From the IMG/VR virus record IMGVR_UViG_3300025732_001505, positions 1-49,566 of that record: 49,566 bases of DNA; one strand, given 5' to 3'. The position numbers were made by a program, and so were the translations under genes. The DNA is from a virus. The notes under the pieces were generated by a model. It was given only the letters and a program-made list of their open reading frames with translations, searched no databases and had not been told where the DNA came from. Numbering within the stretch: position 1 is the first letter of the stretch; the number at the start of each line of letters is the position of its first letter. This document shows positions 238-14,782 of this stretch, in pieces.

Positions 238-2373
238 ATGAGTAACGATCTATCGTTCCTTCCGCCGGACGACCCCGACATGGATCAGCCATCCGTCTCA
301 GGTCGTGACTTCGAGAATGGCACTCGCGCTGCCGTGCGCACGCTCTCGTCTCAGTTCGACACGGACGTCGTGTTCGCTGGCGACGGTGCTTGCACCAACG
401 GCAAGCGCGTGACCCTGCCAGCCAATGCGCCTGACAAGATGCTGACCAAGCGCCAAGCGCACGTCGGTCGAGGCTTTGCCAACCACGAGTCACTGCACAA
501 CCTGCTGACCGACTTCGATGCGGGCTTGCCCAAGTTTCGTGAGTGGGGCACGACCGGACGCACGTTGACACTGCACTTGGCACAAGCCATCGAGGATGTG
601 CGCATCGAGAACGGTGGTGCTCGTCTGTACCCCGGGATGCCTAAGTCGATTGACAAGACCGCCGAGTTCGTCTGCCGACGCTTCGCCGAGAAGACGTTCA
701 AGGAGAACCCCGACATTGCCAAGGACATGGGCGCTGTGCTCCCGCTCGCCATCACTTGGGCAGGTCGTCTGCGTATTGGCTACCCATCGCCAGTCATTCG
801 CGTTGCGTTTGATGCACTTGGCGAGGACGTTCGCAAGCGTGCCGAGCAGGTGGTCGATGTCATCATGACCCTGCCACATGGTGTCGAGGGCATTGGTCAG
901 GTCAACCGTAGCGAGGCGTACAAGGGCTGTCGCATGGGTCTCGAACTCGCCAACCGCATCGGCAACGAGGTCGCCAAGGAAGTGGCTGATGAGGAAGAGC
1001 GACAACGTCAAGGCCAAGGTCAGGGTCAAGGCAATGGTCAAGGTCAGGGTCAAGGTCAAGGTGGTGGGCAAAACGGTGGGCAAGGTGGTGACGGCTCGTC
1101 TCAGGCAGCTGGTGGCAGCGGAGGCAACGGTGACACCGTCTCAGATCAGATGGCGAAGGGTGACGGGTACAAGGACTCGTCGCAGGAAGCCAAGGGCAAC
1201 GGTGGTGCGCACGGTGCGACCAACTCGCAAGCCCAAGAGGTGGGTAAGGTGACGGGCGAGTCTCGCTCGATTGACCCCAACCTCGACGAAGGTGTTGTCG
1301 AGTTGATGACCGAGGGTGTTGCGACCAGCAAGGACTATCGTCCCTACACGAGATCGTTCGACGTGTGGACTGACAAGCGTGATGGCACACTCAAGACTGC
1401 GCTGTATCACAACAATGGTCAGGCGCTGTATGCGCACGAGAAGTCTCGCGTTGTCGGCTCGCTGGCTACGATGCGTCGCAAGTTGGAGCGTGCGCTGATT
1501 GCCAAGGACACACGCCAATGGGAGCAGTCGCGTAGTGGCAAGCTCGACATCCGTCGTCGTGGCGTTGGCATCATGAGCGGTAGCGATCTGATCTTCAAGC
1601 GCAAGTCTGACGGTGACGATCTCAATGCGGCGGTGTCGATCTTGATTGACCTGTCCGGCTCGATGGCAGGCGACAAGGCGCATGTTGCAGGGCAGTCGAC
1701 CATTGCGTTGTGTGAAGCGTTTGCTTCGACTGGCGTTCCGCTTGAGGTGCTCGGTCACTATACGCATGGCTTGCCTTATGACATGCGCAATCAGATCGCC
1801 AAGGAAACTGACGAGCACTTGCGTGATGACGATGGCAACTATGTGGTACAGGCTGATGGTTCTTATGCGAAGAACCCCAACGTGCACAACTATGACCGCA
1901 CCGATGGGGTGACGATGCTTGTGTTCAAGTCGTTCGATGAGCCAATGACTCAAGCGCGTAGCGCACTAGGCATGATTCCGCACATGACGAGTGGTGCGAA
2001 TGCCGATGCTGATGCCATCATGTATGCGGCAGAGCGCTTGCTTGAGCAGAAGAATGATCGTCGCATCTTGCTTGTGATGGCTGACGGTTATCCCGCATGG
2101 CATTCGAGTGGTGGCAAGAAAGCCAACTATCGTCGCACTCGTGATGCTGTGCAGTGGTGTGAGACGAAGGGCATCAAGTGTGTAGGGATCGGCATTCAGA
2201 GCGACGCTGTTCGCCAGTTCTTCCCTCGCAATGTTGTGCTTCAGAGCGTGGCTGATCTGGGCAAGACGGTTCTCGATCAGGTTGCACGTCTCGTCTTGGG
2301 TGAGCGCTTCCGCGTTGACAACAAGGACTTGATTGCATCTGACAAGGATCGCGCTCGTGCAATGGCCCGCTAA
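238..2373 (+). CDS. CobT-like VWA-domain protein
   Basis: This is a 711-residue protein. The ATG at 238 is preceded by AAGGAGA at 224-230. The frame is open further upstream, but that part overlaps the preceding gene and has no ribosome site. The N-terminal half is helical with a HESLH segment near residue 83. A Gln/Gly repeat linker lies at about residues 257-285. A von Willebrand A domain follows, with the MIDAS motif DLSGS near residue 470 and a later VMADG strand. This is the architecture of cobaltochelatase subunit CobT: a metal-binding VWA domain behind an acidic or low-complexity linker. CobT partners CobS, whose relative appears to precede it here. In phages the pair probably acts as an ATPase/VWA remodelling machine on an unknown substrate. 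Confidence in the family is high and in the function low. Confidence 0.8.
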   Translation: MSNDLSFLPPDDPDMDQPSVSGRDFENGTRAAVRTLSSQFDTDVVFAGDGACTNGKRVTLPANAPDKMLTKRQAHVGRGFANHESLHNLLTDFDAGLPKFREWGTTGRTLTLHLAQAIEDVRIENGGARLYPGMPKSIDKTAEFVCRRFAEKTFKENPDIAKDMGAVLPLAITWAGRLRIGYPSPVIRVAFDALGEDVRKRAEQVVDVIMTLPHGVEGIGQVNRSEAYKGCRMGLELANRIGNEVAKEVADEEERQRQGQGQGQGNGQGQGQGQGGGQNGGQGGDGSSQAAGGSGGNGDTVSDQMAKGDGYKDSSQEAKGNGGAHGATNSQAQEVGKVTGESRSIDPNLDEGVVELMTEGVATSKDYRPYTRSFDVWTDKRDGTLKTALYHNNGQALYAHEKSRVVGSLATMRRKLERALIAKDTRQWEQSRSGKLDIRRRGVGIMSGSDLIFKRKSDGDDLNAAVSILIDLSGSMAGDKAHVAGQSTIALCEAFASTGVPLEVLGHYTHGLPYDMRNQIAKETDEHLRDDDGNYVVQADGSYAKNPNVHNYDRTDGVTMLVFKSFDEPMTQARSALGMIPHMTSGANADADAIMYAAERLLEQKNDRRILLVMADGYPAWHSSGGKKANYRRTRDAVQWCETKGIKCVGIGIQSDAVRQFFPRNVVLQSVADLGKTVLDQVARLVLGERFRVDNKDLIASDKDRARAMAR
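1008..1092 (+). repeat. Short tandem repeat encoding Gln-Gly linker
   Basis: Imperfect 6-base units (GGTCAA, GGTCAG, GGCCAA) are repeated many times inside the CobT-like gene and encode alternating Gly-Gln, then Gly-rich sequence. It is probably a flexible linker before the VWA half. Such a repeat is prone to length change by slippage. Confidence 0.85.
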
Positions 2374-2551
2374 AAAGAGGAAGGCGGGCGTTCCCAAGAT
2401 ACCAAGTGTGTGGTTTGCGCTGTTGCCCGGACAGTCGCTTGCGTTTTGGATTGGTGTTGCCAAGCGAGCCAAGTCTCGCAGGGTTCGCAAGCATGACTAC
2501 ACGAAGATCAAACAACTAGCAAAGGAGATTGCGTATGGAAGTAAAACCTAA
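2357..2551 (+). CDS. Small basic protein, unknown
   Basis: I take the GTG at 2357, preceded by AAGGA at 2344-2348, as the start. This gives 64 residues and overlaps the end of the CobT-like gene by 17 bases. The protein has a basic N-terminus (PAKKRK), a short hydrophobic centre around the Trp-Phe-Ala-Leu-Leu-Pro segment, and a Lys/Arg-rich C-terminus. It overlaps the next gene by 17 bases, which fits translational coupling. I do not recognise a family. A DNA- or RNA-binding accessory role is only suggested by the charge. A TTG further upstream (2333) would be an alternative start. Confidence 0.5.
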   Translation: MQWPAKKRKAGVPKIPSVWFALLPGQSLAFWIGVAKRAKSRRVRKHDYTKIKQLAKEIAYGSKT

Positions 2552-2813
2552 GTCAGAGTGGCGCAAGTCACTGTTCCTCGTTGCGCTTGAGGACTACCTG
2601 TTGAAGGGAGCCAATAGCGACCCATCGTTTGCGATGCGGGTCATCGTGAGAGACCCGATCATCGAACGCACTGAGCGCAACGAGACAAAGTATGTGCCGG
2701 AGATTGAGGGTGTGATGTCGATGCGTTGGCTCGCAGAAGACATCGTGACCTTCACGACGCATGATGGAAACGTAACGATCAAGGCTGACGAAGTCGTCGG
2801 CTACTACTCATAA
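2535..2813 (+). CDS. Hypothetical protein
   Basis: The protein has 92 residues, with its ATG seven bases after AAAGGAG at 2521-2527. It begins with charged residues, then a helical segment (about residues 10-25), followed by alternating beta-like stretches. It has no cysteines and no membrane segment. It ends 10 bases before the next gene, which has its own AAGGAGA, so this is one operon of small early genes. No family was recognised. Confidence 0.7.
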   Translation: MEVKPKSEWRKSLFLVALEDYLLKGANSDPSFAMRVIVRDPIIERTERNETKYVPEIEGVMSMRWLAEDIVTFTTHDGNVTIKADEVVGYYS

Positions 2814-2823
2814 GGAGAAAGCA

Positions 2824-3342
2824 ATGGACATTGACAAGATGGCTGACCAAGAGCTTGAGAAACTTGGTGTGAAGAAGAAGGAAGAACCGAAACCCCTGCG
2901 TTCGTCTTGGGGTGCGAGTGGATTCGATGACTTGGAGAGTGACGTGCTCGACTCGTCTTCGTATTCGAGCAATCGGTACAAGAATGGTGGATGGAAAGAC
3001 CCCAACTACTGGAGCAAGAAGAGCAAGAGTTCGCCTCGCCAAGGTGATCTTTGGAGTCGTGGCACTGCGCCAGCCGAGAAGCTGGAGACGATCTGCCGTC
3101 GTGAGTTCAACACGACTGTGTCTGCCGGTGAGGCGCTGATCGGTCACGTTGGTCTCGACAAGATCGTGACCGAGTTGCGCACCGAGTTCATGCGTTCGCT
3201 CGACAAGAGCAAGGTGTTGGTCATTGATGGTAGGCCCGGTAACGATGCGCTGTACATGGCGATTGAGGAGATCATCACGAAGCACTGCATCTACATGACT
3301 GACGACGCTGAGTATCTGAGCATTGGTGTGGAGGACAAGTGA
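2824..3342 (+). CDS. Hypothetical acidic/serine-rich protein
   Basis: The protein has 172 residues and a clear AAGGAGA before the ATG. The first 75 residues are charged and Ser-rich and probably disordered. A compact region starts near residue 80. Residues about 100-160 look alpha/beta, including a beta strand (KVLVIDG) followed by a helix. The stop overlaps the next ATG as TGATG. No motif allowed a functional call. The small-gene context suggests an accessory early phage protein. Confidence 0.7.
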   Translation: MDIDKMADQELEKLGVKKKEEPKPLRSSWGASGFDDLESDVLDSSSYSSNRYKNGGWKDPNYWSKKSKSSPRQGDLWSRGTAPAEKLETICRREFNTTVSAGEALIGHVGLDKIVTELRTEFMRSLDKSKVLVIDGRPGNDALYMAIEEIITKHCIYMTDDAEYLSIGVEDK

Positions 3343-3623
3343 TGAGGAAGAAGCAGATCGCAAACATCGTGCACCTGAATGACGAGCAACGCATGAGGGA
3401 AGCCGCTGAGTATCTTGGTGAGAATGTCATGAAGATGTTCAAGGCAATCCTCATGAAGCATGACCGCGCTGTGATTGAGGCGGGCTTTGAGGCTGTGATG
3501 GCGGAGCGGGAACGATGCGCCAGCATCGTGGAACGCATGGGCATGGACGGCTATGGGACTTTGTATATCGCACAACAGTTGAGGAGTGGTGATGACTATC
3601 AAGATCAAAACACAGCACTGTGA
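3342..3623 (+). CDS. Hypothetical helical protein
   Basis: The protein has 93 residues. The ATG at 3342 overlaps the preceding stop (TGATG), so translation is probably coupled; a GTG one codon earlier is the alternative. It is predicted to be almost wholly helical, with a charged N-terminus and an ERERCASIVERMGMDGYG-like segment. That segment resembles a short conserved motif found in many small phage proteins of unknown function, in which an Arg-Glu-Arg-Cys helix is followed by a Gly-rich turn. It overlaps the next gene by 32 bases. Confidence 0.65.
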   Translation: MRKKQIANIVHLNDEQRMREAAEYLGENVMKMFKAILMKHDRAVIEAGFEAVMAERERCASIVERMGMDGYGTLYIAQQLRSGDDYQDQNTAL

Positions 3624-3798
3624 GGATTGTTGGCACGGCAAGTGGGACGTGCCGACCAGTGACTTGGTTTGTGAGAAAGGACACAAGCCAAGGTTCTTTC
3701 GCATGAAGTCGCCGCTAGACCAGACGTTTGGGTTCAAGCGTAGGTGTGGTGACTTCGTCGACAAGATGGTGGCGAGACACTTTGAGAAGGAGAAGTGA
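3592..3798 (+). CDS. Cysteine-containing small protein, possible zinc-binding
   Basis: The protein has 68 residues. The start chosen is the ATG at 3592, five bases after GAGGAG; two GTGs just upstream are alternatives. A CEDC pair near residue 10, a further Cys near 26 and one near 52 could hold a zinc ion, as in small rubredoxin-like or zinc-ribbon phage proteins. The C-terminus is basic. It lies in the run of small early genes, with one base before the next ATG. Function is unknown, and the zinc-binding suggestion is inference from Cys spacing only. Confidence 0.6.
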   Translation: MTIKIKTQHCEDCWHGKWDVPTSDLVCEKGHKPRFFRMKSPLDQTFGFKRRCGDFVDKMVARHFEKEK

Positions 3799-3799
3799 G

Positions 3800-4201
3800 A
3801 TGGCTACGAGATGGGAGAAGGAGCAAGACAGAGCCAAGGTCGCGGCATACGAGGAGTGGAAAAAGAAGCGTGATGCTGAGACGAAGGCAAGTGTATCTAC
3901 TGAAGAGACTTCTTCAGTAGATACAAAGAATGGTGGCACGATCAAGTTGGGAGGTCAGACTCATGAGGTGGATGCAGAAGACTGCTTCATTTGGCTGAAG
4001 AACAACGCCGATCATGAGAAGCCACATCAGGTGATCTGTGCCATGCCGGAGCCGAAGGACGGTGTGCTTGTGATACGCAAGCCGTTCTTGATTGCATGGG
4101 GCTTGTACCACTTGCTGAGTGACGAGGAGTGGACGAACAAGTTGATTGAGAGAACGAAGGTGAAACTGGAAGCGCAACTCAAACCTATTACCAAGGAGTG
4201 A
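3800..4201 (+). CDS. Hypothetical protein with hairpin-encoded segment
   Basis: The protein has 133 residues. The ATG at 3800 follows AAGGAGAAG of the previous gene end. The N-terminal 30 residues form a charged helix rich in Lys, Glu and Ala. Then comes a Ser/Thr/Glu stretch whose DNA is a perfect 14-bp inverted repeat (3892-3925). After that a folded domain begins with a HEVDAEDCF-like strand and contains conserved-looking Trp residues. No family was recognised. The inverted repeat splits the gene into a helical leader and a domain, so the leader may be a late addition. Confidence 0.65.
   Translation: MATRWEKEQDRAKVAAYEEWKKKRDAETKASVSTEETSSVDTKNGGTIKLGGQTHEVDAEDCFIWLKNNADHEKPHQVICAMPEPKDGVLVIRKPFLIAWGLYHLLSDEEWTNKLIERTKVKLEAQLKPITKE
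3892..3925. repeat. Perfect 14-bp inverted repeat inside a coding region
   Basis: TGTATCTACTGAAG at 3892-3905 is mirrored exactly by CTTCAGTAGATACA at 3912-3925, with a six-base loop. No T-run follows, so it is not a normal terminator. It encodes a Ser/Thr/Glu linker. Confidence 0.85.
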
Positions 4202-4204
4202 ATC

Positions 4205-4708
4205 ATGGACATCGTTCAAGCTGTGGGAAACCTGATCGCAGGTGCTGATGACAAGACTGTGCGCACGTTGGCGCAGGTTGTCGTTGATCGTTACTCGAAG
4301 CTGATGGGTGAGGCTTACATCCTTGCGCCAGCATCGCAGACCTTTACGCAGACCCCTTCCGGGTCTGCCCCCGCCAAGGCTGGTGGTGGTGTGAAGAAGA
4401 GCAAGCGGTGGTCTCGTCTCATCACAGGATGCGACTACACGAAGCGGGCCAACGGGTATGCGGTCAAGGGTGGGTTTGCCAACCGTGATCTGAGCCAGCA
4501 TGCCGAGGGCAGTCTCGTCTTGATGGTCGTGCCTGACATCGGGATGATGTTGGGGACGGTGTGCAAGGGCGAGGAATGGGTCTACCAGTATCCGAGTGGA
4601 CAGACGGGAAGCGTCGAGAACTTCAAGGGCATCATGCCTCTGTTCAATGAGGGCGATTGGGCTGGCATCGTTGATCGGTGCAAGGCGATGGGTGTCCCAC
4701 AAAGTTGA
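4205..4708 (+). CDS. Hypothetical protein upstream of integrase
   Basis: The protein has 167 residues, with AAGGAG at 4193-4198 before the ATG. An N-terminal helical segment (residues 1-35) is followed by a Pro/Ala/Gly linker (45-65) and a C-terminal beta-rich domain with KGEEWVYQYPSG- and GDWAG-like motifs. Its last codons overlap the first operator-like palindrome and the -35 element of the integrase promoter. It is therefore the last gene of the cobT-led operon, and the integrase is a separate unit. No family was recognised. Confidence 0.7.
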   Translation: MDIVQAVGNLIAGADDKTVRTLAQVVVDRYSKLMGEAYILAPASQTFTQTPSGSAPAKAGGGVKKSKRWSRLITGCDYTKRANGYAVKGGFANRDLSQHAEGSLVLMVVPDIGMMLGTVCKGEEWVYQYPSGQTGSVENFKGIMPLFNEGDWAGIVDRCKAMGVPQS

Positions 4709-4711
4709 CAA
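4692..4711. promoter_or_regulatory. Operator-like palindrome 1 (integrase promoter)
   Basis: GTGTCCCACAAAGTTGACAA has the same frame (GTGTC, ten bases, GACA) as the sites at 4722 and 12644. It overlaps the stop of the upstream gene and the TTGACA -35 element. Inference: it is a weaker repressor half-palindrome. Confidence 0.5.
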
Positions 4712-4733
4712 AAGGGTGAGGGTGTCACATAAT
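4705..4733 (+). promoter_or_regulatory. Sigma-70 promoter for the integrase
   Basis: TTGACA (4705-4710), a 17-base spacer and CATAAT (4728-4733) form a near-consensus sigma-70 promoter. It ends about 44 bases before the integrase start codon. Two operator-like palindromes cover its -35 and -10 elements. Confidence 0.7.
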
Positions 4734-4741
4734 TGGGACAC
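4722..4741. promoter_or_regulatory. Operator-like palindrome 2 (over the -10)
   Basis: GTGTCACATAATTGGGACAC is a 20-bp inverted repeat with GTGTC/GACAC arms. It matches GTGTCACGTTACTGAGACAC at 12644-12663 at 16 of 20 positions. It includes the integrase -10 element, so a bound repressor would block transcription. Confidence 0.65.
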
Positions 4742-4776
4742 CGACGTTACGGTTACGTTAAATGAAGGAGGTGGCT

Positions 4777-5811
4777 ATGCCGCTCAAAATTGTGAGGAAG
4801 AGTGGGCGACTGTGGGTGATGGGTCGCATGCTCGGAGTACAGGTCAGACGCTCTACCCAGTTGCCAGTGGGGTACGAGAGAGAGGCCGAGAAGATGAGGC
4901 TCGACATCGAGCGAGACATCATCGAAGGCAAGTTCAACACCAAGAAGCATTCGTTCAAGGAGGCGGTCGATTCGTACCTCGCTTGGAAGCGGATGGAAAA
5001 GTCCGACATCAGGACGATTGGTGCACATTGCGACATGTTCGTGTCGCTGTTCAAGGATGTAGCGGTGGAAGACATTACCGCAGACATCGTTCAGACGAAG
5101 ACCACCGAGGCTTGGAAGACGCTCAAGGCGGGTAGCGTGAGGCGCTATCTGAATACCATGAGTGCGGTGCTCAACCATGCCAGTGATCGGTGGGGGTTCA
5201 AGGTTCCCAAGTTGAAGAAGCCCGTGGTGGATGACGCACGGGACGCGCACTTCAGTGCGGAGGAAGCCAACCTGTTCTTGGAGTGGGTGGAGCGCAACCA
5301 TCGGCACTACTTGGCGCACTTCACGGTGCTCATTGATTGCGGGGTTCGGCTCAACGAGTTGTTGCGGTTGACGAGACGCGACTTCAAGGAGGGCGTGCTG
5401 CGGATGCAGCGACGCACGACTGGCAACGGGAAGACTGAGACGAGAGTGATACCTCTGACCAACGGCGTCCTGCTGGCAGTCAAAGATTTCCCTGCGTTCG
5501 GGCCAGCGTTCTTGAAGCCAAGTGGCGAGGCGTGGAGGACGAGCGCCGATGCGTCGAGCTACTTGGGCAAGGTGCTGAAGGAGGGGTGCGCTGAGTTGGG
5601 GCTACCGGCGTTGAGGGTGCACGACTTGCGGCACACGTTTGCGTACTTGGTGGCGCAAGCGGGTGCAGATGTGGCTGACCTTCAGACGCTGTTGGGGCAT
5701 GAGGACATCAGTCAGACCATGAGGTATCGGGGCTTTGTGTTGAGTCGAGCGAAGCAGTTCGTGACTGCGGCGCGAGACAGTAGCGATGGGGAGACACGAG
5801 CATGCAAATGA
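4777..5811 (+). CDS. int: Tyrosine recombinase (integrase)
   Basis: The protein has 344 residues and should catalyse site-specific recombination of phage and host attachment sites. The ATG at 4777 is five bases after AAGGAGG; an in-frame ATG at 4762 lies before that site and is rejected. The order is: a short beta-rich arm-binding N-terminus, a SAM-like core-binding domain (about residues 50-140), then the catalytic domain. Visible catalytic residues are Arg191 (GVRLNEL), His282 and Arg285 (HDLRH), His308 (LLGHED) and nucleophile Tyr317 (MRYRGF). The essential Arg-His-Arg-His-Tyr set is therefore intact, and the length is normal for the family. It is preceded by its own promoter with operators and followed by a terminator, so it is a single-gene unit. 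An attachment site could not be identified. Confidence 0.95.
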   Translation: MPLKIVRKSGRLWVMGRMLGVQVRRSTQLPVGYEREAEKMRLDIERDIIEGKFNTKKHSFKEAVDSYLAWKRMEKSDIRTIGAHCDMFVSLFKDVAVEDITADIVQTKTTEAWKTLKAGSVRRYLNTMSAVLNHASDRWGFKVPKLKKPVVDDARDAHFSAEEANLFLEWVERNHRHYLAHFTVLIDCGVRLNELLRLTRRDFKEGVLRMQRRTTGNGKTETRVIPLTNGVLLAVKDFPAFGPAFLKPSGEAWRTSADASSYLGKVLKEGCAELGLPALRVHDLRHTFAYLVAQAGADVADLQTLLGHEDISQTMRYRGFVLSRAKQFVTAARDSSDGETRACK

Positions 5812-5903
5812 GACAGGGACGTCAAGGTGATTTGGGTGTGCAAGCATTGAAGTGCGCGAGGGGTTTTAGGTTTTTCCTCTACGCGCAGTCTCCTTCTTGG
5901 TTT

Positions 5904-5935
5904 GGGTGGGGGTCACAAGCCTCCACCCTTTTTTT
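5904..5935 (+). terminator. Rho-independent terminator after integrase
   Basis: The stem GGGTGGGGG/CCTCCACCC (5904-5912 with 5920-5928, one G-U pair, seven-base loop) is followed by seven T. Upstream in the same 135-base gap, TGCGCG (5853) and CGCGCA (5882) form a second, weaker hairpin around a T-rich loop. No gene is evident in the gap. Confidence 0.9.
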
Positions 5936-5946
5936 AGGGGACTGCG

Positions 5947-6267
5947 ATGAACCTCGTTGACAAAGTAATCCGGTACATGCGCCAGCATACCGAAGCCGAC
6001 AAGAATTGTTCGGAAGAATTCTGGGTCACAGGCACAGCACTCGAAGCAGTGTCTGGTGTGAGCCGCAAGACGATCTCAAGGTGGAAGACGACGAACGACC
6101 CGACGCTCTCCAACTTTGTGGCTGTCGTCGAATCATTGGGCGGGAGAGTGTTGGTTGAACTTCCCGAGCCGACAAAAACAAGCTGTCATAGATGTGGTCG
6201 TGAGACTGCGACGCTTGTGCGTAATGACCACAAGTTTTGTGGAAGGTGCGCATCACGAAAGGAGTAA
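5947..6267 (+). CDS. HTH plus zinc-ribbon regulator
   Basis: The protein has 106 residues. The first 75 contain a helix-turn-helix of the XRE/lambda-repressor kind: an alanine-rich helix, a SGVSRKTISRW recognition helix, then a SNFVAVVESLGGRVLVEL-like C-terminal helix and strand. The last 30 residues carry CHRC and CGRC pairs about 17 residues apart, a zinc ribbon. It sits directly after the integrase terminator and is transcribed the same way. It could be a repressor or excision/integration regulator, and is a candidate for the protein that binds the shared palindromes. The ribosome site is weak (AGGGGA) and the ATG at 5947 is the only reasonable start. Confidence 0.7.
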   Translation: MNLVDKVIRYMRQHTEADKNCSEEFWVTGTALEAVSGVSRKTISRWKTTNDPTLSNFVAVVESLGGRVLVELPEPTKTSCHRCGRETATLVRNDHKFCGRCASRKE

Positions 6268-6269
6268 TC

Positions 6270-6662
6270 ATGATGTTGACAGAAGCGATCATTTGTTTGG
6301 CGACTGCGGTCTACTTTGAGGCGAGAGGTGAGCCGCTCGTGGGGCAGGTTGCAGTAGCCAAGGTGGTGATGAATCGAGTCAAGGACGATAGGCATCCCAA
6401 GACGGTTTGTGATGTTGTTCGTTTCAGGGTGAAGACGACGTGTGCGTTCTCGTTCATGTGCGAGAAAGACAGGCTTGTTGTGAATGACATGAATGCTTGG
6501 AGAAGTTCGGTGAACATCGCAAGCCTTGTGTTCAATGGCAAGCTGACCGACCCAACGAATGGTGCGACACACTTCCATGCGAAGACGGTGCAACCAAAGT
6601 GGGGCAACGTGCAGGTGACTGCGAAGATAGGCAACCACATTTTTTACAGGAGCGAACAATGA
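6270..6662 (+). CDS. SleB-type cell wall hydrolase
   Basis: The protein has 130 residues, with AAAGGAG at 6258-6264 before ATG ATG (6270 or 6273). The motif YFEARGEPLVGQVAVAKVVMNRV begins at residue 15, and the GATHFHA-like motif follows near residue 100. These are the hallmarks of the Hydrolase_2/SleB family, peptidoglycan-cleaving enzymes with a catalytic Glu (here Glu17) found in spore cortex lysis and in many phages. The N-terminal hydrophobic stretch (about residues 6-15) is short and lacks a basic lead, so it is probably part of the fold rather than an export signal. It lies far from the late lysis genes, in the integrase-side transcript, so its timing and role are unclear. It overlaps the next start as ATGA. 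Confidence 0.85.
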   Translation: MMLTEAIICLATAVYFEARGEPLVGQVAVAKVVMNRVKDDRHPKTVCDVVRFRVKTTCAFSFMCEKDRLVVNDMNAWRSSVNIASLVFNGKLTDPTNGATHFHAKTVQPKWGNVQVTAKIGNHIFYRSEQ

Positions 6663-7177
6663 ACGTGTTCTACTTGGATGAAGACCCGAGAGCGGCGGCG
6701 CACATGCACTGCGACAAGCATGTGTACAAGATGATCTTGGAGTATGCGCAGTTGATGATGGCGGCTTGGTACAAAGAGGCAGAGAAAGACCCGATGGTCG
6801 TGCAGTACATCACGGACAACGAGTTTTGGAAGCCGTCACACTTGCATCATCCTGCGACCAAGTGGGTGCAGACAGGGATCATTCCGTATGCTTGGGTGTT
6901 CTCGTGCTGGGAAGAATTGTTGTTGATCTATGCGGGTAAGACGGGGAAGTTCCATGCGGCGATGAAGTACCACGACTCGTTGATGTTGTGTCCGCCGAGC
7001 ATTAGTGAGCAGATGGAGTGGGTTGAGCCACCGCTGTGCATGCCCGATAGCTACAAGTATGGGAGTGCGGTTGATGCGTACCGCAGGTACTACTGCATTG
7101 AGAAGGCTGGGTTTGCGAAGTGGGTTGGCAGGCAGACACCGGCTTGGTTCAGTGGGCCGACATCAGCGGTGCACTGA
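6659..7177 (+). CDS. Conserved phage protein (CDKHVxKMILE family)
   Basis: The protein has 172 residues. The ATG overlaps the preceding stop (ATGA). The N-terminus, MNVFYLDEDP then CDKHVYKMILEYAQLM, matches a widespread family in T4-like and other phages that begins with a short beta strand, an Asp-Pro turn and a His-containing helix. The middle has HLHHPATKWV, and several conserved-looking His, Trp and Asp residues suggest an enzyme. I know of no settled function. Some databases compare similar proteins with DNA-repair glycosylases, which I could not verify. It is the last plus-strand gene here. The convergent gene begins one base after its stop. Confidence 0.75.
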   Translation: MNVFYLDEDPRAAAHMHCDKHVYKMILEYAQLMMAAWYKEAEKDPMVVQYITDNEFWKPSHLHHPATKWVQTGIIPYAWVFSCWEELLLIYAGKTGKFHAAMKYHDSLMLCPPSISEQMEWVEPPLCMPDSYKYGSAVDAYRRYYCIEKAGFAKWVGRQTPAWFSGPTSAVH

Positions 7178-7684
7178 CTACCAACTTCCTTTTTGGGTGA
7201 GCATGTAGGCGATGAAGTAGTAGAGCGCCATGCTCGCTGAGACGCCAATGATGATGGCGAGAGTCCACTCAACGAGTGTGTCGACGAGGTCTTGACGACG
7301 CTTGAGTTGATCGCGAACCATCTTCTCACGGCTCGACTTGATGTCGCGACGGAGTTGTTGGAATTCTTGGTAGCCCGACATGCCAAGGTGACCGAGTTCT
7401 CCCCATGTGAACATGTGGTAAATCTCTTTTTCCATGTCGGCGAGTTTTTGTTTGGCAGCCATCTTGTCGAAAGCCTCTTTCGTCTCAGAGGTGTCGAACT
7501 TGATGGGCTTCCAGATGCTGGGCTTGGTGTCTTTGCCGAGCCAATGATTGAGATCGTCGACAGCTTCTGCCCACTTGGTGAGTTGCTTAAAGACGTCTTC
7601 GACTTCGCGCCCCGTCTTGACAACGGCCTTCACGCCATTGAAGGCGGCATTGAGCGCTGAGAATGCGGCGATCAGTTCTACCAC
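7178..7684 (-). CDS. Membrane-anchored helical protein
   Basis: The protein has 168 residues from the GTG at 7684. The ribosome site AAGGAG lies eight bases upstream, inside a hairpin loop (7683-7710). The N-terminus is an amphipathic Ala-rich helix, the middle is coiled-coil-like and charged, and one hydrophobic segment (about residues 140-162, ending YYFIAYML) precedes a short tail. With one C-terminal membrane span and a long charged soluble part, it resembles membrane-tethered accessory proteins such as spanin- or holin-associated proteins. No family was recognised. It ends tail-to-tail with the plus-strand gene, one base apart, without a visible terminator between them. Confidence 0.65.
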   Translation of the reverse strand: MVELIAAFSALNAAFNGVKAVVKTGREVEDVFKQLTKWAEAVDDLNHWLGKDTKPSIWKPIKFDTSETKEAFDKMAAKQKLADMEKEIYHMFTWGELGHLGMSGYQEFQQLRRDIKSSREKMVRDQLKRRQDLVDTLVEWTLAIIIGVSASMALYYFIAYMLTQKGSW

Positions 7685-7710
7685 TAGGCTTGCTCCTTGA
7701 TGAGCCTAGT
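7683..7710 (-). promoter_or_regulatory. Hairpin presenting the Shine-Dalgarno in its loop
   Basis: ACTAGGCT (7683-7690) and AGCCTAGT (7703-7710) are perfect complements flanking a 12-base loop. Read on the minus strand, the loop holds AAGGAG and the stem's 3' arm runs into the GTG start at 7684. Inference: an RNA switch or enhancer of initiation for the 168-residue membrane protein. Confidence 0.6.
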
Positions 7711-7742
7711 TTGCGAGCGCAGTAGATAGTTCGTCGTCCTCG

Positions 7743-7780
7743 TTTTTATAAGACAAACGGGCCACGCGAGAGCGTGACCC
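7743..7780 (-). terminator. Rho-independent terminator (minus strand)
   Basis: The stem (7772-7780 with 7759-7767, nine pairs including one G-U) has a four-base loop. On the minus strand it is followed by a T-rich stretch (GTTTGTCTT). It ends the small-gene operon that starts at 9273. Confidence 0.65.
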
Positions 7781-7789
7781 GACAAAACG

Positions 7790-7927
7790 TCAGCGCTTTT
7801 TCTTGGGCGCTGGTTTCTTTTCCGACATCTTTTCCGAGCGCTCCTTGCGAGGCGACTCGGCTTTCTCGTGCTTCTTCATTGCGGTGGTGGACTTGTAGGT
7901 CTCCTTGCCGCCGTATTCCTTTTTCAT
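7790..7927 (-). CDS. Lys/Glu-rich short protein
   Basis: The protein has 45 residues; the ATG at 7927 has AAAGGA upstream. It begins MKKEYGGKETYKSTTAMKKHEK, a pattern I associate with very short highly charged phage proteins found between structural and early genes. The C-terminus (KKPAPKKKR) is strongly basic. Roughly half the residues are Lys, Glu or Arg. The start overlaps the stop of the preceding gene (ATGA), and a terminator lies directly downstream. Nucleic-acid binding is plausible but unproven. Confidence 0.6.
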   Translation of the reverse strand: MKKEYGGKETYKSTTAMKKHEKAESPRKERSEKMSEKKPAPKKKR

Positions 7928-8103
7928 TTGAGCTTTCCTTTCACGGGCTTCTTGGTGGGACGTTTGGTGACCACGGGGATCACCTTCTCTTTGATGACCG
8001 CGACCTTGACGACCGCCTTCACCACATTGGCGGCGCAACCAAGCGACGCGCAAATGTTCGGGGACTTACAGCTTGAGCAGAGTGCATTCATGGGCTTCAC
8101 CAT
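7924..8103 (-). CDS. Short cysteine-containing basic protein
   Basis: The protein has 59 residues from the ATG at 8103. The first 25 residues have four cysteines (CSSCKSPNICASLGC), a plausible zinc-binding knuckle. The rest alternates Val/Ile with Lys and ends in a proline-lysine tail. It overlaps its upstream gene by seven bases and its downstream gene by four, so the three are translated as a coupled set. Small phage proteins with this CxxC...C pattern occur beside KARRKSYYARHN-type proteins, as here. Function is unknown. Confidence 0.6.
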   Translation of the reverse strand: MVKPMNALCSSCKSPNICASLGCAANVVKAVVKVAVIKEKVIPVVTKRPTKKPVKGKLK

Positions 8104-8372
8104 TTAACTTTGTTTGACCAGTAGCGGGCACTGAAGATGTCAGGGCTTGAGTCTTGTGCGTTGTGGCGGGCGTAGTAGGACTTGCGTCGAGCCTTGTCCT
8201 TTGCGGACTTGGGGTTCTTGCCTGCGCCGGTAACGCCTTGCTGACCAAAGCGCACAATTTTCTCTTTGCCATCTTTGCATGCCTTGACGACGTGAGACTT
8301 CGTCTTATGACCCGGAGTCTTCTGTGGTTTGTTGCAAGCCATCTTCGACTTGCTTGCTGGTTTCGTTGCCAT
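8097..8372 (-). CDS. DUF6321-like small basic protein
   Basis: The protein has 91 residues; the ATG at 8372 is preceded by GAGGAGA. The centre and C-terminus contain FGQQGVTGAG, KARRKSYYARHN and a final YWSNKVKW. I recognise this motif series from a widespread phage family (DUF6321) of short, basic, often duplicated proteins of unknown role. The first 68 bases overlap the 3' end of the upstream nuclease gene in another frame, so the nuclease's last 22 residues and this protein's N-terminus share DNA. Confidence 0.75.
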   Translation of the reverse strand: MATKPASKSKMACNKPQKTPGHKTKSHVVKACKDGKEKIVRFGQQGVTGAGKNPKSAKDKARRKSYYARHNAQDSSPDIFSARYWSNKVKW

Positions 8373-8778
8373 GTTGTTTCTCCTCAATGCGGAAGCCGAC
8401 CTGCGAAAGCAGGGCGGCGTATAGGTCAAGCCAATCATCGAGACGCATGACCACGAGGCTGTCGCCTGTCGCAACTCTGCTACGTCTCGATATTACAACG
8501 GGTTTCTCTGGTGCGCGTTTGCCACGGATGCCAGTCTCGGCCTGCTCCATGGCGGCATAGGGTTGGAATTTTTCTGTTCGCTTGGCTTCGACCCAGACTT
8601 CTGGGGTTCCAATGAGGTCGGCGCTGCCGCCGCCTGAGACGAACTGTCGACCGCCGCCTGAGAGGGGAGCGCGGTAGACCTGCTCTCGACCGCCGAAGAG
8701 TCGGTCATTCATGTAGTGGGCAATCTCACGCTCGTAAGCGTCGCCTTTTGCCTTTGCGCCTTTCGGGCTTAGTCCCAT
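8305..8778 (-). CDS. PD-(D/E)XK nuclease, Holliday-junction-resolvase-like
   Basis: The protein has 157 residues from the ATG at 8778. KGDAYEREIAHYM near residues 11-23 supplies the first acidic residue. A Gly-rich loop and SADLIG (Asp near residue 53) come next, then VWVEAKRTE (Glu-x-Lys near 63-65), completing the PD-(D/E)XK core. A conserved Gln helix (MEQAE) follows. Length and order match phage/archaeal-type Holliday junction resolvases or recombination nucleases, which cut branched DNA before packaging. The last 22 residues overlap the next gene and may be a dispensable tail. It starts inside the end of the HTH/zinc-ribbon gene. Confidence 0.75.
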   Translation of the reverse strand: MGLSPKGAKAKGDAYEREIAHYMNDRLFGGREQVYRAPLSGGGRQFVSGGGSADLIGTPEVWVEAKRTEKFQPYAAMEQAETGIRGKRAPEKPVVISRRSRVATGDSLVVMRLDDWLDLYAALLSQVGFRIEEKQHGNETSKQVEDGLQQTTEDSGS

Positions 8779-9092
8779 AAACGGTACTCCGTGTCATCGT
8801 CGTCAAGTGTAGAGCGGCATTTGTCGCAGAAATATTGCCACTTAGGACGAGGTCGGTCGTCCTTACACTTCATGCACGGGCGAACCCATACGTTCTTCTT
8901 GTTCGAGCGCGTCATTGAGACGGCATACTTTGCCCCCTCGAACTCCGCCAGACCCTCTCTTTGTAATATTCGTTTCAGCGTGTCGACGCACACCCCAAGT
9001 GACGTCGCCATGCTTGTGTAATGTTCACCGTTCTCGACGGCCTGCCGGAGGAACGCTCTCTCCATCTGAGAGAGAACCCTCGGCTTTGTCAT
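8769..9092 (-). CDS. HTH plus zinc-ribbon protein
   Basis: The protein has 107 residues; the ATG at 9092 has AAAGGAG six bases upstream. Residues about 8-45 form a helix-turn-helix (TSMATSLGVCVDTLKRIL). The C-terminal 40 residues carry CMKC and CDKC pairs, a zinc ribbon. This is a plausible transcription regulator. The combination repeats the layout of the 106-residue protein at 5947 without obvious sequence identity. Its start lies inside the upstream gene (68-base overlap) and its stop inside the resolvase gene (10 bases). Confidence 0.7.
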   Translation of the reverse strand: MTKPRVLSQMERAFLRQAVENGEHYTSMATSLGVCVDTLKRILQREGLAEFEGAKYAVSMTRSNKKNVWVRPCMKCKDDRPRPKWQYFCDKCRSTLDDDDTEYRLWD

Positions 9093-9273
9093 TCACGACT
9101 CCTTTCCTCAACCCCATTCCGACCCCGCAACTGACGCAATACTTGCCGCCCGCAGTGCCGGTGAGAAAGGTGCGGATATTCCTTGCACACCGTAGGCACT
9201 TGAACCACTTAAACTTTTGTCCAGCTTGTGTCGCATTCTGCTCTTGACAAGATTCTTTCACGCTCGCTACCAT
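9025..9273 (-). CDS. Small zinc-ribbon protein
   Basis: The protein has 82 residues from the ATG at 9273, with only a weak ribosome site (AGGG). CLRC and CVSC pairs 19 residues apart in the middle form a zinc ribbon, with basic residues between. The last 23 residues share DNA with the start of the next gene. It is the first gene after the 9301 terminator, so a promoter should lie at 9274-9345 on the minus strand, but I could not place one securely. It may be a nucleic-acid-binding accessory protein. Confidence 0.6.
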   Translation of the reverse strand: MVASVKESCQEQNATQAGQKFKWFKCLRCARNIRTFLTGTAGGKYCVSCGVGMGLRKGVVNDKAEGSLSDGESVPPAGRRER

Positions 9274-9280
9274 CCCTATT

Positions 9281-9346
9281 AAGAACTAACACACTGATAG
9301 AAACCACCCTTCGGGTGGTTTTTCAGTAATAAGTGTAGTAGTTCTT
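9281..9346. promoter_or_regulatory. Long interrupted palindrome around a terminator
   Basis: AAGAACTA (9281-9288) is mirrored by TAGTTCTT (9339-9346), and an ACACT/AGTGT pair lies further in. The centre is the 9301-9323 stem. Together they form one nested fold or paired operator half-sites around the terminator. Confidence 0.5.
9301..9323. terminator. Bidirectional Rho-independent terminator
   Basis: A nine-bp stem AAACCACCC/GGGTGGTTT (9301-9309 with 9313-9321) has a three-base loop. It is followed by T residues on the plus strand and by a shorter T-rich run (TTTCT) on the minus strand. It separates the replication operon (12572-9347) from the small-gene operon that begins at 9273. Confidence 0.75.
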
Positions 9347-9679
9347 TTAGGGCTTGACCTCCTTGGACACGAAAGCCTCGACATCACGGTAGACCTGTTG
9401 CCTCGCCACGTTGTCCGTCACCGCCTCCTTCCATCCCGCATAACGCATCTCGGTCTCGCACCGCTCAAGCAAGTCGAGCGCGTCACTCATGTCATTTGCC
9501 AAGTCCCAGTCAGGGTTGAACTCGTTCTCACCTTCAGGATCGAAGCGCTCTGGGTACGTCTCGATGTACTCCTTGACCGCCTCTGCCATTGGCGCGGCGT
9601 TGGATGTTGAGCCAACCGGCATTACGCCGGGGCGGGTTGTCAGCCACCCGGCGAAGTCATAAATGTCTTGCTGTCTCAT
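9347..9679 (-). CDS. Hypothetical acidic protein
   Basis: The protein has 110 residues from the ATG at 9679, which overlaps the preceding stop (ATGA); a GTG at 9688 is the alternative. It is strongly acidic and helical, with a central stretch rich in Asp, Glu and Asn followed by a helix bearing LLERCETEMRYAGW. It has no membrane segment or known motif. It is the last gene of the replication operon before the terminator. Confidence 0.65.
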   Translation of the reverse strand: MRQQDIYDFAGWLTTRPGVMPVGSTSNAAPMAEAVKEYIETYPERFDPEGENEFNPDWDLANDMSDALDLLERCETEMRYAGWKEAVTDNVARQQVYRDVEAFVSKEVKP

Positions 9680-10044
9680 TTCTGCCACCCCCTCATAAGT
9701 CGAGCGATCAGTTGGTGTTCTGCGCCAACGACCAGTTCATGATGCGTGTCGCCCAGCTTGGCAGCCGTCTCGCAGAAGTCGGCGACCAGCAGATGAAGTA
9801 CCTCGTGAAGCGCCAGCCTCTCGACGTCGTCCTCTATTCCGAAGTCGGCTTCGCACTGCTCGGTCAGTCGGATCGAAGCGTTCTTTGAGACGGAGTTGTA
9901 CTGCGTCTGAGCCACCACGTTCCCGCCAATCTGCTCGTGAACAATCATGAGGTTCCACTCGACCAAGCCGAAGAGCGCAACGAGTTCCTCGACGGACTCC
10001 TTGAACAGCTTGAAGTCGCACTCATCAAAACGAAATGTCTTCAT
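9676..10044 (-). CDS. HExxH putative metalloprotein
   Basis: The protein has 122 residues; the ATG at 10044 follows GGAGGT. Near residue 83 it carries ALHEVLHLL, an HExxH zinc-site motif inside a helix, preceded by a beta-rich half. The arrangement (small protein, two or three strands, one HExxH helix) resembles SprT-like or minimal zincin domains. A third zinc ligand is not certain; His98, His99 or a nearby Glu could serve. Operon partners are the primase-helicase and a coiled-coil protein, which would fit a protease acting on replication proteins, but this is inference. Confidence 0.65.
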   Translation of the reverse strand: MKTFRFDECDFKLFKESVEELVALFGLVEWNLMIVHEQIGGNVVAQTQYNSVSKNASIRLTEQCEADFGIEDDVERLALHEVLHLLVADFCETAAKLGDTHHELVVGAEHQLIARLMRGWQK

Positions 10045-10382
10045 CAGACCTCCAACCTGTCTCGGATTTGGCACATCCTTGTGATGAGCATGTCGATTTG
10101 CATGTTGCTCTCCCTCAAGCTGAGTACCAACATGGAGTTCCCGCGCACATCCTTCGACACCCTGCCAGTAGCTGGCACTTCGTTCTGAGACATGATGGGT
10201 CGCAGACGCATCTCCACCTGAGACACCATTTCTTCGAGAGTGGAAATACGGTTTCTGAGACCACCAAGTTCGTCTTCAGTTGCCGACTCTTGTCTTGGGA
10301 CTTCAGGCCCAAGCCCAAGCGTAGGGTTCAGAGTCGAGCCGAGTTGAGCGCCAATGCCCATGTGTGATTGACCGATGTTCAT
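10044..10382 (-). CDS. Coiled-coil hypothetical protein
   Basis: The protein has 112 residues; the ATG at 10382 lies five bases after AAAGGAG. The N-terminal third is Gly/Pro-rich. Residues about 38-62 form a leucine-heptad coiled coil (GGLRNRISTLEEMVSQVEMRL), and the C-terminus is another helix. Both ends overlap neighbours by ATGA-type junctions, so it is translated together with the primase-helicase. An oligomerising accessory factor of replication is possible. No family was recognised. Confidence 0.65.
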   Translation of the reverse strand: MNIGQSHMGIGAQLGSTLNPTLGLGPEVPRQESATEDELGGLRNRISTLEEMVSQVEMRLRPIMSQNEVPATGRVSKDVRGNSMLVLSLRESNMQIDMLITRMCQIRDRLEV

Positions 10383-12382
10383 GAGTTCTCCTTTATGCCC
10401 AGCCATCTACGAACTTCGTAGGCCGGGACTTTCATACGCATTGAAATCTCCACGGGTGTGGAGCCTTGGGTGTGGAGCAGGTGCATGGCCTGCTGCTTCT
10501 TGGATTTGGTTGAGACGATGAACTTCTCGCTGCTGCCCAACTTTTCGGCCCAGCCGATGTAGTGGGTGTCGTGAAGCTCAGTCTGCTGCCGGACTTTTCC
10601 GTAGGTGATTTGTGTCACCATGGTGAGACGGGTGTCGTCACCAGCTTGCTTTTCGAGGTATCCCCATGGGGTGAACTCGCGTCCGTCTATCGCATACACG
10701 GATAGGTCGCCGTCCCACAGACCGGCCTTTGACTTGGCGTCGTTCTTCTCGCGGAAGACCTGAGTGACAAAAACCTGCGTGTCGATGTCGGTCAACTGCG
10801 CGGTCGAGCCAGCCTCGCGCCCCAGCCCAGCTTCGCCCGGTTTGTTGCGGTGGTGCACCATGACCACGCTGGCTTGGTATCGGTTGCGGATTGCCTTGGC
10901 GACATGATTGACCTTCGCCCACTCACTTGCTGATGCTTCTTCGAGACCACGGAATGCGTTGCGGATGGTGTCGATCACAACAATGTCGGGCTGAACCACG
11001 TCGAGCCACTGACCAAGCATGCGAAAACCGCTCTCCTCCATCAGGTTCATCTCGCCGCCATCCTCTGGTGCAATCAAGGTGGGAGACCAGATACCAAGGT
11101 GGTGGCCCGTGTCGCCAAACATCTTGTTGAACTCTTTGAGACGACGCAGCACCGTGCGGCGCGGGTTGTCGTAGTCCATGTAGAAAATCTTGGCTGGCTT
11201 CCCGAGTTGGTACGGGCCAAACCATTCGTGCCCAGAAGCAAGGGCGGCGAGCATGGCTGAGAGGAAGTAGGATTTGCCGTGACCGTTGTAGCCTGCGATT
11301 TGGGTGATGGTTCCGGCGGGGATGATGGGGTCTGACCAGTAGACTTCGTCCTTCATTTCCGCCAAAAGGCGGTCGACTGCGTCTGAATAGATGGGGATCA
11401 GCGATCCAGTTGCGTTTTTGGGTGACTCTTTTTTGCGTCGGCTACCGTCTTCTGCGTAATCCTCGGGGTAGTTTCTGCGATCCATCTCCTGTGCGCTGCG
11501 TAGGGTGACCTCTACTTCGCGTCGATCAAGATGCTGATCGAAGAAGTCATCCATGAAGGCTTCGCACACCACCCTCAAGTCATCGCCAACCACGCCCTGT
11601 CTGATCTTCTGTCCCGCGAATCGGACAAGCCAGTTGTTCCTGCCGTCTCCGTCGGTCATCTTGCGACCAAGGTGCGCCACCCTCTGCGCGGCTTGCTCGT
11701 AGACGCTCATGGAGTCCGCCTCTGACGCCACACGGTAGTCGGACAGGTTCAAGGCGTCGAAGCTGAACTCCCCGTCAAGCTGTGTCTCAACCTCGGTTGG
11801 CTTGCCAGCCCATACCCATTCCCCCAGATCGTCAACAGAGGTCTCGTAGCCGCAGTCGAACTCATACTGGTGCGAGACGACACCGTTCTCGTCGAGCTTG
11901 ATGGATGGCGGCATGACCACATAGCCACCGTCGCCACGGAAGTCCAAGCCCTCGACCTTGGGCCAGTCTCGGGCCACGCCGCCAACCTTGTTGGCGAAGC
12001 GCTTGCCGTGCCCCGGGTGGGCAAAATAAAAGTGCTTGCCACGGGTGGTGTTCACCGTGATGGGCGAAGTCATTCCGTTCTTCTTGGCGTAATCGACAGC
12101 CGCTTGGTTGTCGCAATCCAAGACGAGCACCCCGCTGATGACTCCCGTCACCAAGGCGAGGTTGAAGACTTCCACGCGACCACCTTCCTTGGTAGGCGCT
12201 CCATTCTCAAACCAGTCGTCTACCTCTTCTTGGGTAGTCGCTTGGGTCTGGTATTTCTTCCACTCGTTGAGCGGCTTCTTGCTGGAGATCGAGAGAGGGA
12301 TGACCGTCCATCCCCTCTCAATCGCCATTGATGCTGCGTCATACAGCGTTTGTTTCAGGTCTTGCTTGGTCGGCGCTGTCAT
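10379..12382 (-). CDS. Primase-polymerase/helicase replication protein
   Basis: The protein has 667 residues; the ATG at 12382 follows GAGGAAG. The N-terminal 200 residues are a bifunctional primase/polymerase (AEP) domain. Visible landmarks are GVLVLDCDN (metal-binding Asp residues near 86-88), RGKHFYFAHP near 115 and DFRGDGGYVVMPPS near 144. The C-terminal half is a RecA-fold helicase of the AAA_25/RepA type. Walker A is GYNGHGKS near residue 366, a DYDN strand lies near 400, Walker B is IVVIDT near 470, and VVMVHHRNK is a sensor-like strand. Such fusions prime and unwind DNA during phage or plasmid replication. Its first 44 bases overlap the Cro-like gene, so its expression is tied to the switch. 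No replicative DNA polymerase gene is visible in this window. Confidence 0.9.
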   Translation of the reverse strand: MTAPTKQDLKQTLYDAASMAIERGWTVIPLSISSKKPLNEWKKYQTQATTQEEVDDWFENGAPTKEGGRVEVFNLALVTGVISGVLVLDCDNQAAVDYAKKNGMTSPITVNTTRGKHFYFAHPGHGKRFANKVGGVARDWPKVEGLDFRGDGGYVVMPPSIKLDENGVVSHQYEFDCGYETSVDDLGEWVWAGKPTEVETQLDGEFSFDALNLSDYRVASEADSMSVYEQAAQRVAHLGRKMTDGDGRNNWLVRFAGQKIRQGVVGDDLRVVCEAFMDDFFDQHLDRREVEVTLRSAQEMDRRNYPEDYAEDGSRRKKESPKNATGSLIPIYSDAVDRLLAEMKDEVYWSDPIIPAGTITQIAGYNGHGKSYFLSAMLAALASGHEWFGPYQLGKPAKIFYMDYDNPRRTVLRRLKEFNKMFGDTGHHLGIWSPTLIAPEDGGEMNLMEESGFRMLGQWLDVVQPDIVVIDTIRNAFRGLEEASASEWAKVNHVAKAIRNRYQASVVMVHHRNKPGEAGLGREAGSTAQLTDIDTQVFVTQVFREKNDAKSKAGLWDGDLSVYAIDGREFTPWGYLEKQAGDDTRLTMVTQITYGKVRQQTELHDTHYIGWAEKLGSSEKFIVSTKSKKQQAMHLLHTQGSTPVEISMRMKVPAYEVRRWLGIKENS

Positions 12383-12572
12383 TTGCTTCCTCAAAGTAAT
12401 GGTTCAAGTTAAGGTCAGGGTTAGAAGCGAGGAGCTTTTCAAACTGGCGGGTGTTCATCAGGCCAGTGGCGATCATCCGGTAGGGCGCAGTGCGCGTCTT
12501 GCCGAGAATCGTCGCGACACGCCTGATCCCACCGCAATCGTCGATGAGTTTCTTGGCGTTGAAATTTCTCAC
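12339..12572 (-). CDS. Cro-like helix-turn-helix protein
   Basis: The protein has 77 residues from the GTG at 12572, which follows AAGGAGA. Residues about 5-50 form a compact HTH: KKLIDDCGG, then IRRVATILGKTRTAPYRMI, resembling Cro-type repressors that read an inverted repeat. The C-terminus is acidic and polar and overlaps the primase-helicase gene. It is the first minus-strand gene beside the divergent control region holding the GTGTC/GACAC palindromes, so it is a prime candidate to bind them. A TTG start at 12611 is possible but would add an unlikely leader. Confidence 0.7.
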   Translation of the reverse strand: MRNFNAKKLIDDCGGIRRVATILGKTRTAPYRMIATGLMNTRQFEKLLASNPDLNLNHYFEEANDSADQARPETNAV

Positions 12573-12749
12573 GGTCTCTCCTTGTTTGCAGGGCGGTATG
12601 CCCAGCCCCAACTGTGCCAGAATTCAGACAGGTAGTCCATGACGTGTCACGTTACTGAGACACATTCTGGACAAAACTGTATGGCACACCTGTCCCGATG
12701 ATGATACAGTGTCCTCACCCTTAACCATAACCATGAGGTAACCATCACT
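12573..12749. promoter_or_regulatory. Divergent control region (genetic switch)
   Basis: This 177-base gap separates the minus-strand replication operon from the plus-strand recombination operon. It holds three 20-base sites with TGT/ACA arms: CTGTGCCAGAATTCAGACAG (12612-12631), GTGTCACGTTACTGAGACAC (12644-12663) and CTGTCCCGATGATGATACAG (12690-12709). The middle one is the best match to the integrase operator. Promoters must lie here, but no -35/-10 pair is close enough to consensus for me to assign it. Confidence 0.65.
12644..12663. promoter_or_regulatory. Operator-like palindrome in the switch region
   Basis: The 20-bp inverted repeat has GTGTC and GACAC arms with a ten-base centre. It matches the site at 4722-4741 at 16 of 20 positions with identical spacing. 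The two sites are about 7.9 kb apart, in front of different operons. Confidence 0.7.
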
Positions 12750-13160
12750 ATGAGCGATTGGGATAAATTCGAGGCGGCCTCTGCCGCCGCACCAAAGACA
12801 GCGCTTGCAGATGCGCTCGTCGCAGCCAAAGAAAAACTCGACGCAGCCGAGGCGGAGTACAAGAGGCTCTGCGATGAGGCCATCAGTCGAGTGTCAGACG
12901 ACTTCGGTGACCACGTCATTGACGCACCTGAAGCAATCATCACCGTGTCTCGCGGTTGCAAGTACGAATGGGATCAGAAAATTTTGACCGCCCTTTTTGA
13001 GAGTGGAGTCAAGATGCCCGACTTCGTCAAGAAACATCTCGCCGTAGACAAGCGCAAGTTCGACCGCATGTCGGAAGAAGACCGCGCACCACTTCTCCCC
13101 GCCCTCACACGCAAGCCCGGAAACGTGACTGTCAAAGTCACGAGGAAGGGCGAGGCGTGA
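12750..13160 (+). CDS. Hypothetical early protein
   Basis: The protein has 136 residues; the ATG at 12750 lies 10 bases after GAGGTAA. The N-terminal 55 residues are an Ala/Glu/Lys helix (coiled-coil-like), followed by a small alpha/beta part and a C-terminal basic strand pair (NVTVKVTRKGEA). It is the first gene rightward from the switch, so it should be expressed earliest. Its partners downstream are recombination proteins, which suggests an accessory or regulatory role. No family was recognised. Confidence 0.7.
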   Translation: MSDWDKFEAASAAAPKTALADALVAAKEKLDAAEAEYKRLCDEAISRVSDDFGDHVIDAPEAIITVSRGCKYEWDQKILTALFESGVKMPDFVKKHLAVDKRKFDRMSEEDRAPLLPALTRKPGNVTVKVTRKGEA

Positions 13161-13161
13161 C

Positions 13162-14275: not shown

Positions 14276-14278
14276 ATC

Positions 14279-14773: not shown

Positions 14774-14782
14774 TGACAGCAC

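Follow-up and report, generated by a model that had tools for sequence, protein, structure and literature searches.

Does a single phage-encoded protein control both the integrase promoter of this virus and the divergent early promoters some 8 kb away? The window analyzed here is the whole 49,566-bp stretch of the IMG/VR record IMGVR_UViG_3300025732_001505, and a first-pass annotation of its letters had proposed that one repressor could silence integrase and both early operons at once, pointing to palindromes shared by the integrase promoter and the switch region (Table 1). The near-consensus integrase promoter that it described is borne out: a -35 element (4705–4710) and a -10 element (4728–4733), separated by 17 bases, match the consensus at 11 of 12 positions, and the promoter scores best among the three promoter-like sites found in a scan of positions 2300–17600. 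The palindromes lie where they had been placed, GTGTCACATAATTGGGACAC (4722–4741) over the -10 and GTGTCCCACAAAGTTGACAA (4692–4711) over the -35, and the integrase gene follows 21 bp downstream. In the switch region, GTGTCACGTTACTGAGACAC at 12644 is identical to GTGTCACATAATTGGGACAC at 16 of 20 positions, as had been reported, and the two looser sites near it, at 12612 and 12690, are present with five of ten pairs each. The divergent promoters of the switch are weak matches to the consensus, approximately 80 bp apart, with one dyad each in addition to the central dyad at 12644. The two divergent operons both have the look of early operons for lytic replication. No CI-type repressor gene was found adjoining them, nor did any of the left-arm genes scanned against Pfam match CI or S24. 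Downstream of integrase, an intrinsic-terminator-like hairpin (5904–5928) separates it from the next HTH gene.

Table 1. Positions of promoters, dyads and genes in the window, and of the operator-type dyads in phage CRP-810
Genome	Feature	Position	Strand	Basis or remark
Window	Operator-like site A, weak dyad, contains -35: GTGTCCCACAAAGTTGACAA	4692..4711	.	sequence; 30 bp before site B
Window	Integrase promoter, sigma-70-type, TTGACA-17-CATAAT	4705..4733	+	promoter scan
Window	Predicted operator dyad B, covers -10: GTGTCACATAATTGGGACAC	4722..4741	.	sequence and switch-only matrix
Window	Tyrosine integrase, PF00589	4762..5811	+	domain match
Window	HTH (XRE/CII-like) protein with C-terminal zinc ribbon, gene after integrase	5947..6267	+	conserved in group A relatives only
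Window	HTH and zinc-ribbon protein, leftward operon	8769..9092	-	homologue in 31/31 integrase-bearing relatives
Window	Primase-polymerase/helicase, leftward early operon, behind Cro-like gene	10379..12394	-	domain match
Window	Cro-like protein, 77 aa, GTG start at 12572, GGAGAG before start	12339..12572	-	likeliest binder, predicted
Window	Possible leftward promoter TGGACT-17-CACAGT, weak match	12611..12639	-	read by eye; promoter scan did not report
Window	Switch dyad CTGTGCCAGAATTCAGACAG, 5/10 pairs	12612..12631	.	sequence
Window	Central switch dyad GTGTCACGTTACTGAGACAC, strong	12644..12663	.	sequence and exact-pattern count
Window	Possible rightward promoter GGCACA-16-TACAGT, weak match	12683..12710	+	read by eye; promoter scan did not report
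Window	Switch dyad CTGTCCCGATGATGATACAG, 5/10 pairs	12690..12709	.	sequence
Window	First gene of rightward early operon, DUF7173-like, phrog_2480	12750..13160	+	domain match
CRP-810	Dyad before cobS	1707		TGTA-N10-TACA
CRP-810	Dyad before LuxR-integrase	7736		TGTA-N10-TACA
CRP-810	Dyads before gp15	9569 and 9589		TGTA-N10-TACA
CRP-810	Dyad before HTH-zinc gene (gene begins at 14316)	14359		TGTA-N10-TACA
CRP-810	Switch dyad	16971		TGTA-N10-TACA

A search of the whole record for this type of 20-mer, as the first-pass annotation had suggested, gave a divided answer. Perfect GTGTC-N10-GACAC occurs exactly twice, at 4722 and 12644, against an expectation of about 0.05 occurrences (49566/4^10), and a control pattern with the arms reversed is absent from the window. 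With two mismatches allowed, the GTGTC-type pattern stays at the level of shuffled sequences (30 versus 32.9), and TGT-N12-ACA by itself shows no excess over the window as a whole (17 versus 14.3), which is what chance palindromes around ordinary promoters would look like. Loose matching alone therefore proves nothing, and loose sites need other support; the loose counts in the window do not discriminate and were kept out of the evidence. A matrix trained on nothing but the three switch sites assigns the dyad at 4722 a score of 20.3, the highest outside the switch, the next site in the window reaching 15.3. Over the window and 5.2 kb of left flank, the same matrix finds six sites scoring at least 16, three of which are the training sites, whereas shuffled sequences have 0.08 such sites on average. 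The site at 4692 is weak by itself (four of ten pairs; the switch matrix places it 16th), and gains support from the relative L012, where a two-site layout has a 30-bp spacing identical to that of 4692 and 4722 and the first site lies over the -35.

The window comes from a phage of the CRP-810 type, as it keeps the gene order cobT, integrase, primase, Cro-like, DUF7173-like. Integration of Roseobacter phage CRP-810 (OR671924.1) into a tRNA-Thr gene has been demonstrated by PCR, and 217 of the 251 relatives described with it have an integrase (PMC11288001). The published guess for the lysis/lysogeny choice is a LuxR gene, which is present in CRP-810 and 107 of the 251 relatives, i.e. in under half of the described genomes, and the main text of that report nowhere mentions a repressor, an operator, a promoter or a palindrome (PMC11288001). 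In the window as in CRP-810, cobT and integrase are followed by a leftward primase operon with the Cro-like gene at its head and then by a divergent DUF7173-like operon, and the dyads at integrase and switch share one frame; the window differs in having no LuxR gene before integrase, and GTGTC arms instead of GTGTA. Relatives of the Cro-like protein (12339–12572), down to approximately 35% identity, are found among viral contigs and in one cultured phage, CRP-810. We distinguish group A, which has a KTRTAPYR-like recognition segment and includes the window, from group B, which has VVRTAPYG and includes CRP-810. When genome contigs were searched for prophages, the group A profile of the Cro-like protein hit nothing and the group B profile a single short contig from a single cell (L232). 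Contig L024, of the window's own lineage, is 99.8% identical over 12.8 kb. The window (1–49566) lacks end repeats, and the near-identical contigs L023 and L024 both reach 5.2 kb further left, so the record is less than a whole genome. Its minus strand also contains a single open frame of 3,870 codons (17939–29551), possibly encoding a giant virion protein.

The dyad geometry recurs throughout these relatives. In 51 distinct switch regions, where sites were not preselected, TGT-N12-ACA is found 64 times and the next spacing 23 times, compared with a mean of 2.1 and a maximum of 8 in shuffles. N12 is also the commonest TGT-Nx-ACA spacing in the integrase-upstream stretches of 27 genomes (19 occurrences; mean 2.6 and maximum 10 in 500 shuffles), these stretches being delimited by LuxR presence or, for L040 and L053, by a corrected integrase start. 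Of the 27 relatives, 18 carry the dyad at the promoter of integrase or of LuxR-integrase, usually over the -10, with L040 and L053 joining the 18 solely after that correction. The -10 of the best promoter begins inside the dyad in 14 of these 18 genomes; the promoter test omits L039, L087, L155 and L163, whose contigs end inside or just before integrase. No dyad precedes integrase in the other nine, among them L158 with too little upstream sequence, and four of the nine have a dyad just after integrase. The objection that the first-pass annotation had raised against itself, that the motif might be equally frequent at random positions in related genomes, does not hold: TGT-N12-ACA is far above shuffles at switches and upstream of integrase. 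With enrichment confined to the switch and promoters, chance palindromes are refuted at the level of the family, and we assign them a negligible probability.

We then compared each integrase promoter with the switch of its own genome, scoring the best dyad-weighted 20-mer between the 750 bp before integrase and the switch, with dinucleotide shuffles as the null. The same-genome match gives a Fisher combined p of 1.5e-7 over 27 genomes, relatives that are not independent. It reaches p <=0.03 in 11 of the 27, and the best places are mostly integrase or LuxR-integrase promoters. When its own switch is ranked against the switches of other genomes, the window takes first place out of 27; this ranking is decisive for the window, partly so for CRP-810, and not for most other genomes, because related genomes share the motif. 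In CRP-810, GTGTATTGTTTGTGATACAC before the LuxR-integrase genes matches GTGTATTGTATATACTACAC in the switch at 16 of 20 positions, and the best-matching dyads of L012 (integrase 49% identical), GTTGTCTTATATCTGTGACA and GTTGTCTAAGATGTGTGACT, also agree at 16 of 20. The group B dyad overlaps a TATAAT-like -10, which by itself adds some similarity. The arms read GTGTC in the window and GTGTA in CRP-810, each change being present at integrase and switch alike. The comparisons strongly support the prediction that the dyads at 4722 and in the switch are real shared operators, and equally strongly that the link between integrase and switch is kept across relatives while its sequence changes. A pairing kept with matched changes across distant relatives suggests that one phage regulator probably controls integration and early genes. 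The one-repressor proposal is partly supported: strongly as regards the shared operators, while the action of their ligand as a repressor is a step that we infer.

Host regulators, too, typically bind dyads that overlie promoters, and LexA, CRP or another dyad binder of the host could use these sites, coupling integrase and early genes to the state of the host. The E. coli LexA box is CTGT-N8-ACAG and the CRP box is TGTGA-N6-TCACA; both were rejected, as their spacing differs from the TGT-N12-ACA of the 51 switch regions. Moreover, the arms vary among related phages, jointly at separate sites, and a phage-encoded partner fits such joint change better. We regard control by a host regulator as very improbable.

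Among phage proteins, the Cro-like protein is the likeliest binder. That its gene adjoins the switch dyads in every genome follows from how the genomes were found. The AlphaFold model is a helical HTH protein (pLDDT 82.8), with Xfaso 1 Cro and operator-bound N15 Cro as the closest folds in the PDB; the match has a probability of 0.98 but an E-value of 0.18, which makes a Cro fold of the 77-aa protein likely, not proven. No Pfam family matched the protein from the window and a sequence-based PDB search found no relative; the group B proteins match YdaS (best E 5.5e-5) and, weakly, P22_Cro. The KTRTAPYR/VVRTAPYG segment is situated before and in the recognition helix, and appears to change with the operator: at base 5, 24 of 80 half-sites in group A have an A, versus 40 of 48 in group B (p 6e-9, relatedness not corrected for). 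Of the two candidate binders named in the first-pass annotation, the Cro-like protein fits, being found at every switch with a segment that tracks the operator, and the 5947 protein fares worse, being confined to group A.

The operators might be shared and yet have another phage HTH protein as their main ligand, of the 5947 type, LuxR or the 8769 type, perhaps competing with the Cro-like protein as lambda CI and Cro compete for the same sites. A 5947-type gene follows integrase in 15 group A genomes, but an HMM search did not find this protein in group B, which keeps the operators; CRP-810 gp15 is not an HTH homologue. LuxR, whose gene immediately follows the dyad in some 10 relatives, was rejected as the binder because eight genomes have the dyad without it (the window, L056, L059, L192, L215, L224, L040 and L053). 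The 8769 type, with homologues in all 31 integrase-bearing relatives, is conserved as widely as the Cro-like protein, but its recognition helix CVDTLKRIL hardly changes between groups with differing half-sites, and in CRP-810 its own gene is preceded by a dyad. A main ligand other than the Cro-like protein is on balance unlikely. In CRP-810 (contig L026 in our set), this HTH-zinc gene (14011–14316, minus strand) is missing from the annotation, and it is present in all integrase-bearing relatives.

The 20-bp dyads (TGT-N12-ACA) probably serve a single phage-encoded DNA-binding protein as the operators of a dispersed-operator repressor regulon, and the 77-aa Cro-like protein is the likeliest candidate; binding, the identity of the binder and repression as its effect are all predictions from sequence. 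A dimer at 4722 would cover the -10 of the integrase promoter, and with 4692 also the -35, excluding RNA polymerase; dyads over both elements fit steric repression. The same protein at 12612, 12644 and 12690 would block the divergent early promoters, its own included. Silencing and release would thus be simultaneous for integrase, for the replication operon to the left and for the recombination operon to the right. The CRP-810 switch, read by eye, has TTGCTT-16-TATACT rightwards and TTGCCA-16-TATATA leftwards, with both -10s in one dyad (16971–16990); the same arrangement is readable in L169, L192, L195 and L215. One dyad holding both -10s implies one polymerase at a time, so the promoters of group B would be mutually exclusive. 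Given replication-type operons with no CI-type gene beside them, the tie to the lysogeny decision is hypothetical: the Cro-like protein could either favor lysis, as Cro, or maintain lysogeny, as a repressor. It is doubtful that the Cro-like protein is the sole immunity repressor of a CI-less one-protein switch with one operator type for all predicted targets; if so, it would govern both divergent early promoters, cobS-cobT, the genes after integrase, and integrase itself whether or not LuxR accompanies it.

The predicted regulon is wider than was visible to the first-pass annotation. CRP-810 (57,692 bp) has six TGTA-N10-TACA dyads with at least six of ten pairs, where shuffles expect 0.44. All six are intergenic, in a genome with an intergenic share of 8.3%, and none is found in the structural half. 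One of them (1707–1726) lies approximately 100 bp upstream of cobS, which would bring cobS-cobT of the phage under this predicted regulator, too. L024 has extra dyads at 602, 1058 and 2140/2168, each shortly upstream of a start codon, for about nine operator copies in total in the window lineage. Several copies over separate promoters of one genome are thus found in both CRP-810 and the window lineage, and the inclusion of cobS-cobT, LuxR, post-integrase genes and an HTH gene in the predicted regulon is strongly supported.

Dispersed-operator repressor systems are a known kind. In Cluster A mycobacteriophages (L5/Bxb1 Rep), one repressor likewise acts on many dispersed sites, the stoperators, which vary with the repressor (PMC6550527). 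Stoperators are 13-bp, mostly one-directional sites, located also within genes and numbering up to about 30 per genome, and Cluster A lysogens keep integrase or parABS expressed (PMC6550527). By contrast, the sites described here are not asymmetric and oriented: they are symmetric dyads over promoters, intergenic in six of six cases in CRP-810, and one of them is on the integrase promoter. The CI-Cro switches of lambda, N15 and P22 resemble this one in their divergent early promoters and several dyad operators, and probably in a small protein of Cro fold. They differ in that no CI-type gene was found here opposite the Cro-like gene, where a DUF7173-like gene stands instead, in that the replication operon begins with the Cro-like gene, and in that the separate integrase promoter has its own operator. 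YdaS (PF15943), a Cro-like family of prophages, is approached through the weak profile match of group B, in which one member is under the Pfam cut-off; the protein from the window has no match. A CRP-810-type regulon is not described in the searchable literature, where we found no published account of the lysis/lysogeny choice in these phages. The CRP-810 type is a little-studied family whose members occur widely in the ocean and mostly carry integrases. Present whether or not a genome has LuxR, and tracking a conserved Cro-like protein, the shared operator provides a concrete candidate regulator with a predicted regulon. The model of shared operators is directly testable in a cultured phage–host pair.

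One more observation concerns the far side of integrase. No dyad was found just downstream of integrase in the window, and in many relatives a dyad at this place sits before the next operon. Relative to the integrase start, such dyads are located at +1304 in L012, +1316 in L014, +1269/+1289 in CRP-810, +968 in L030 and +1292 in L158.
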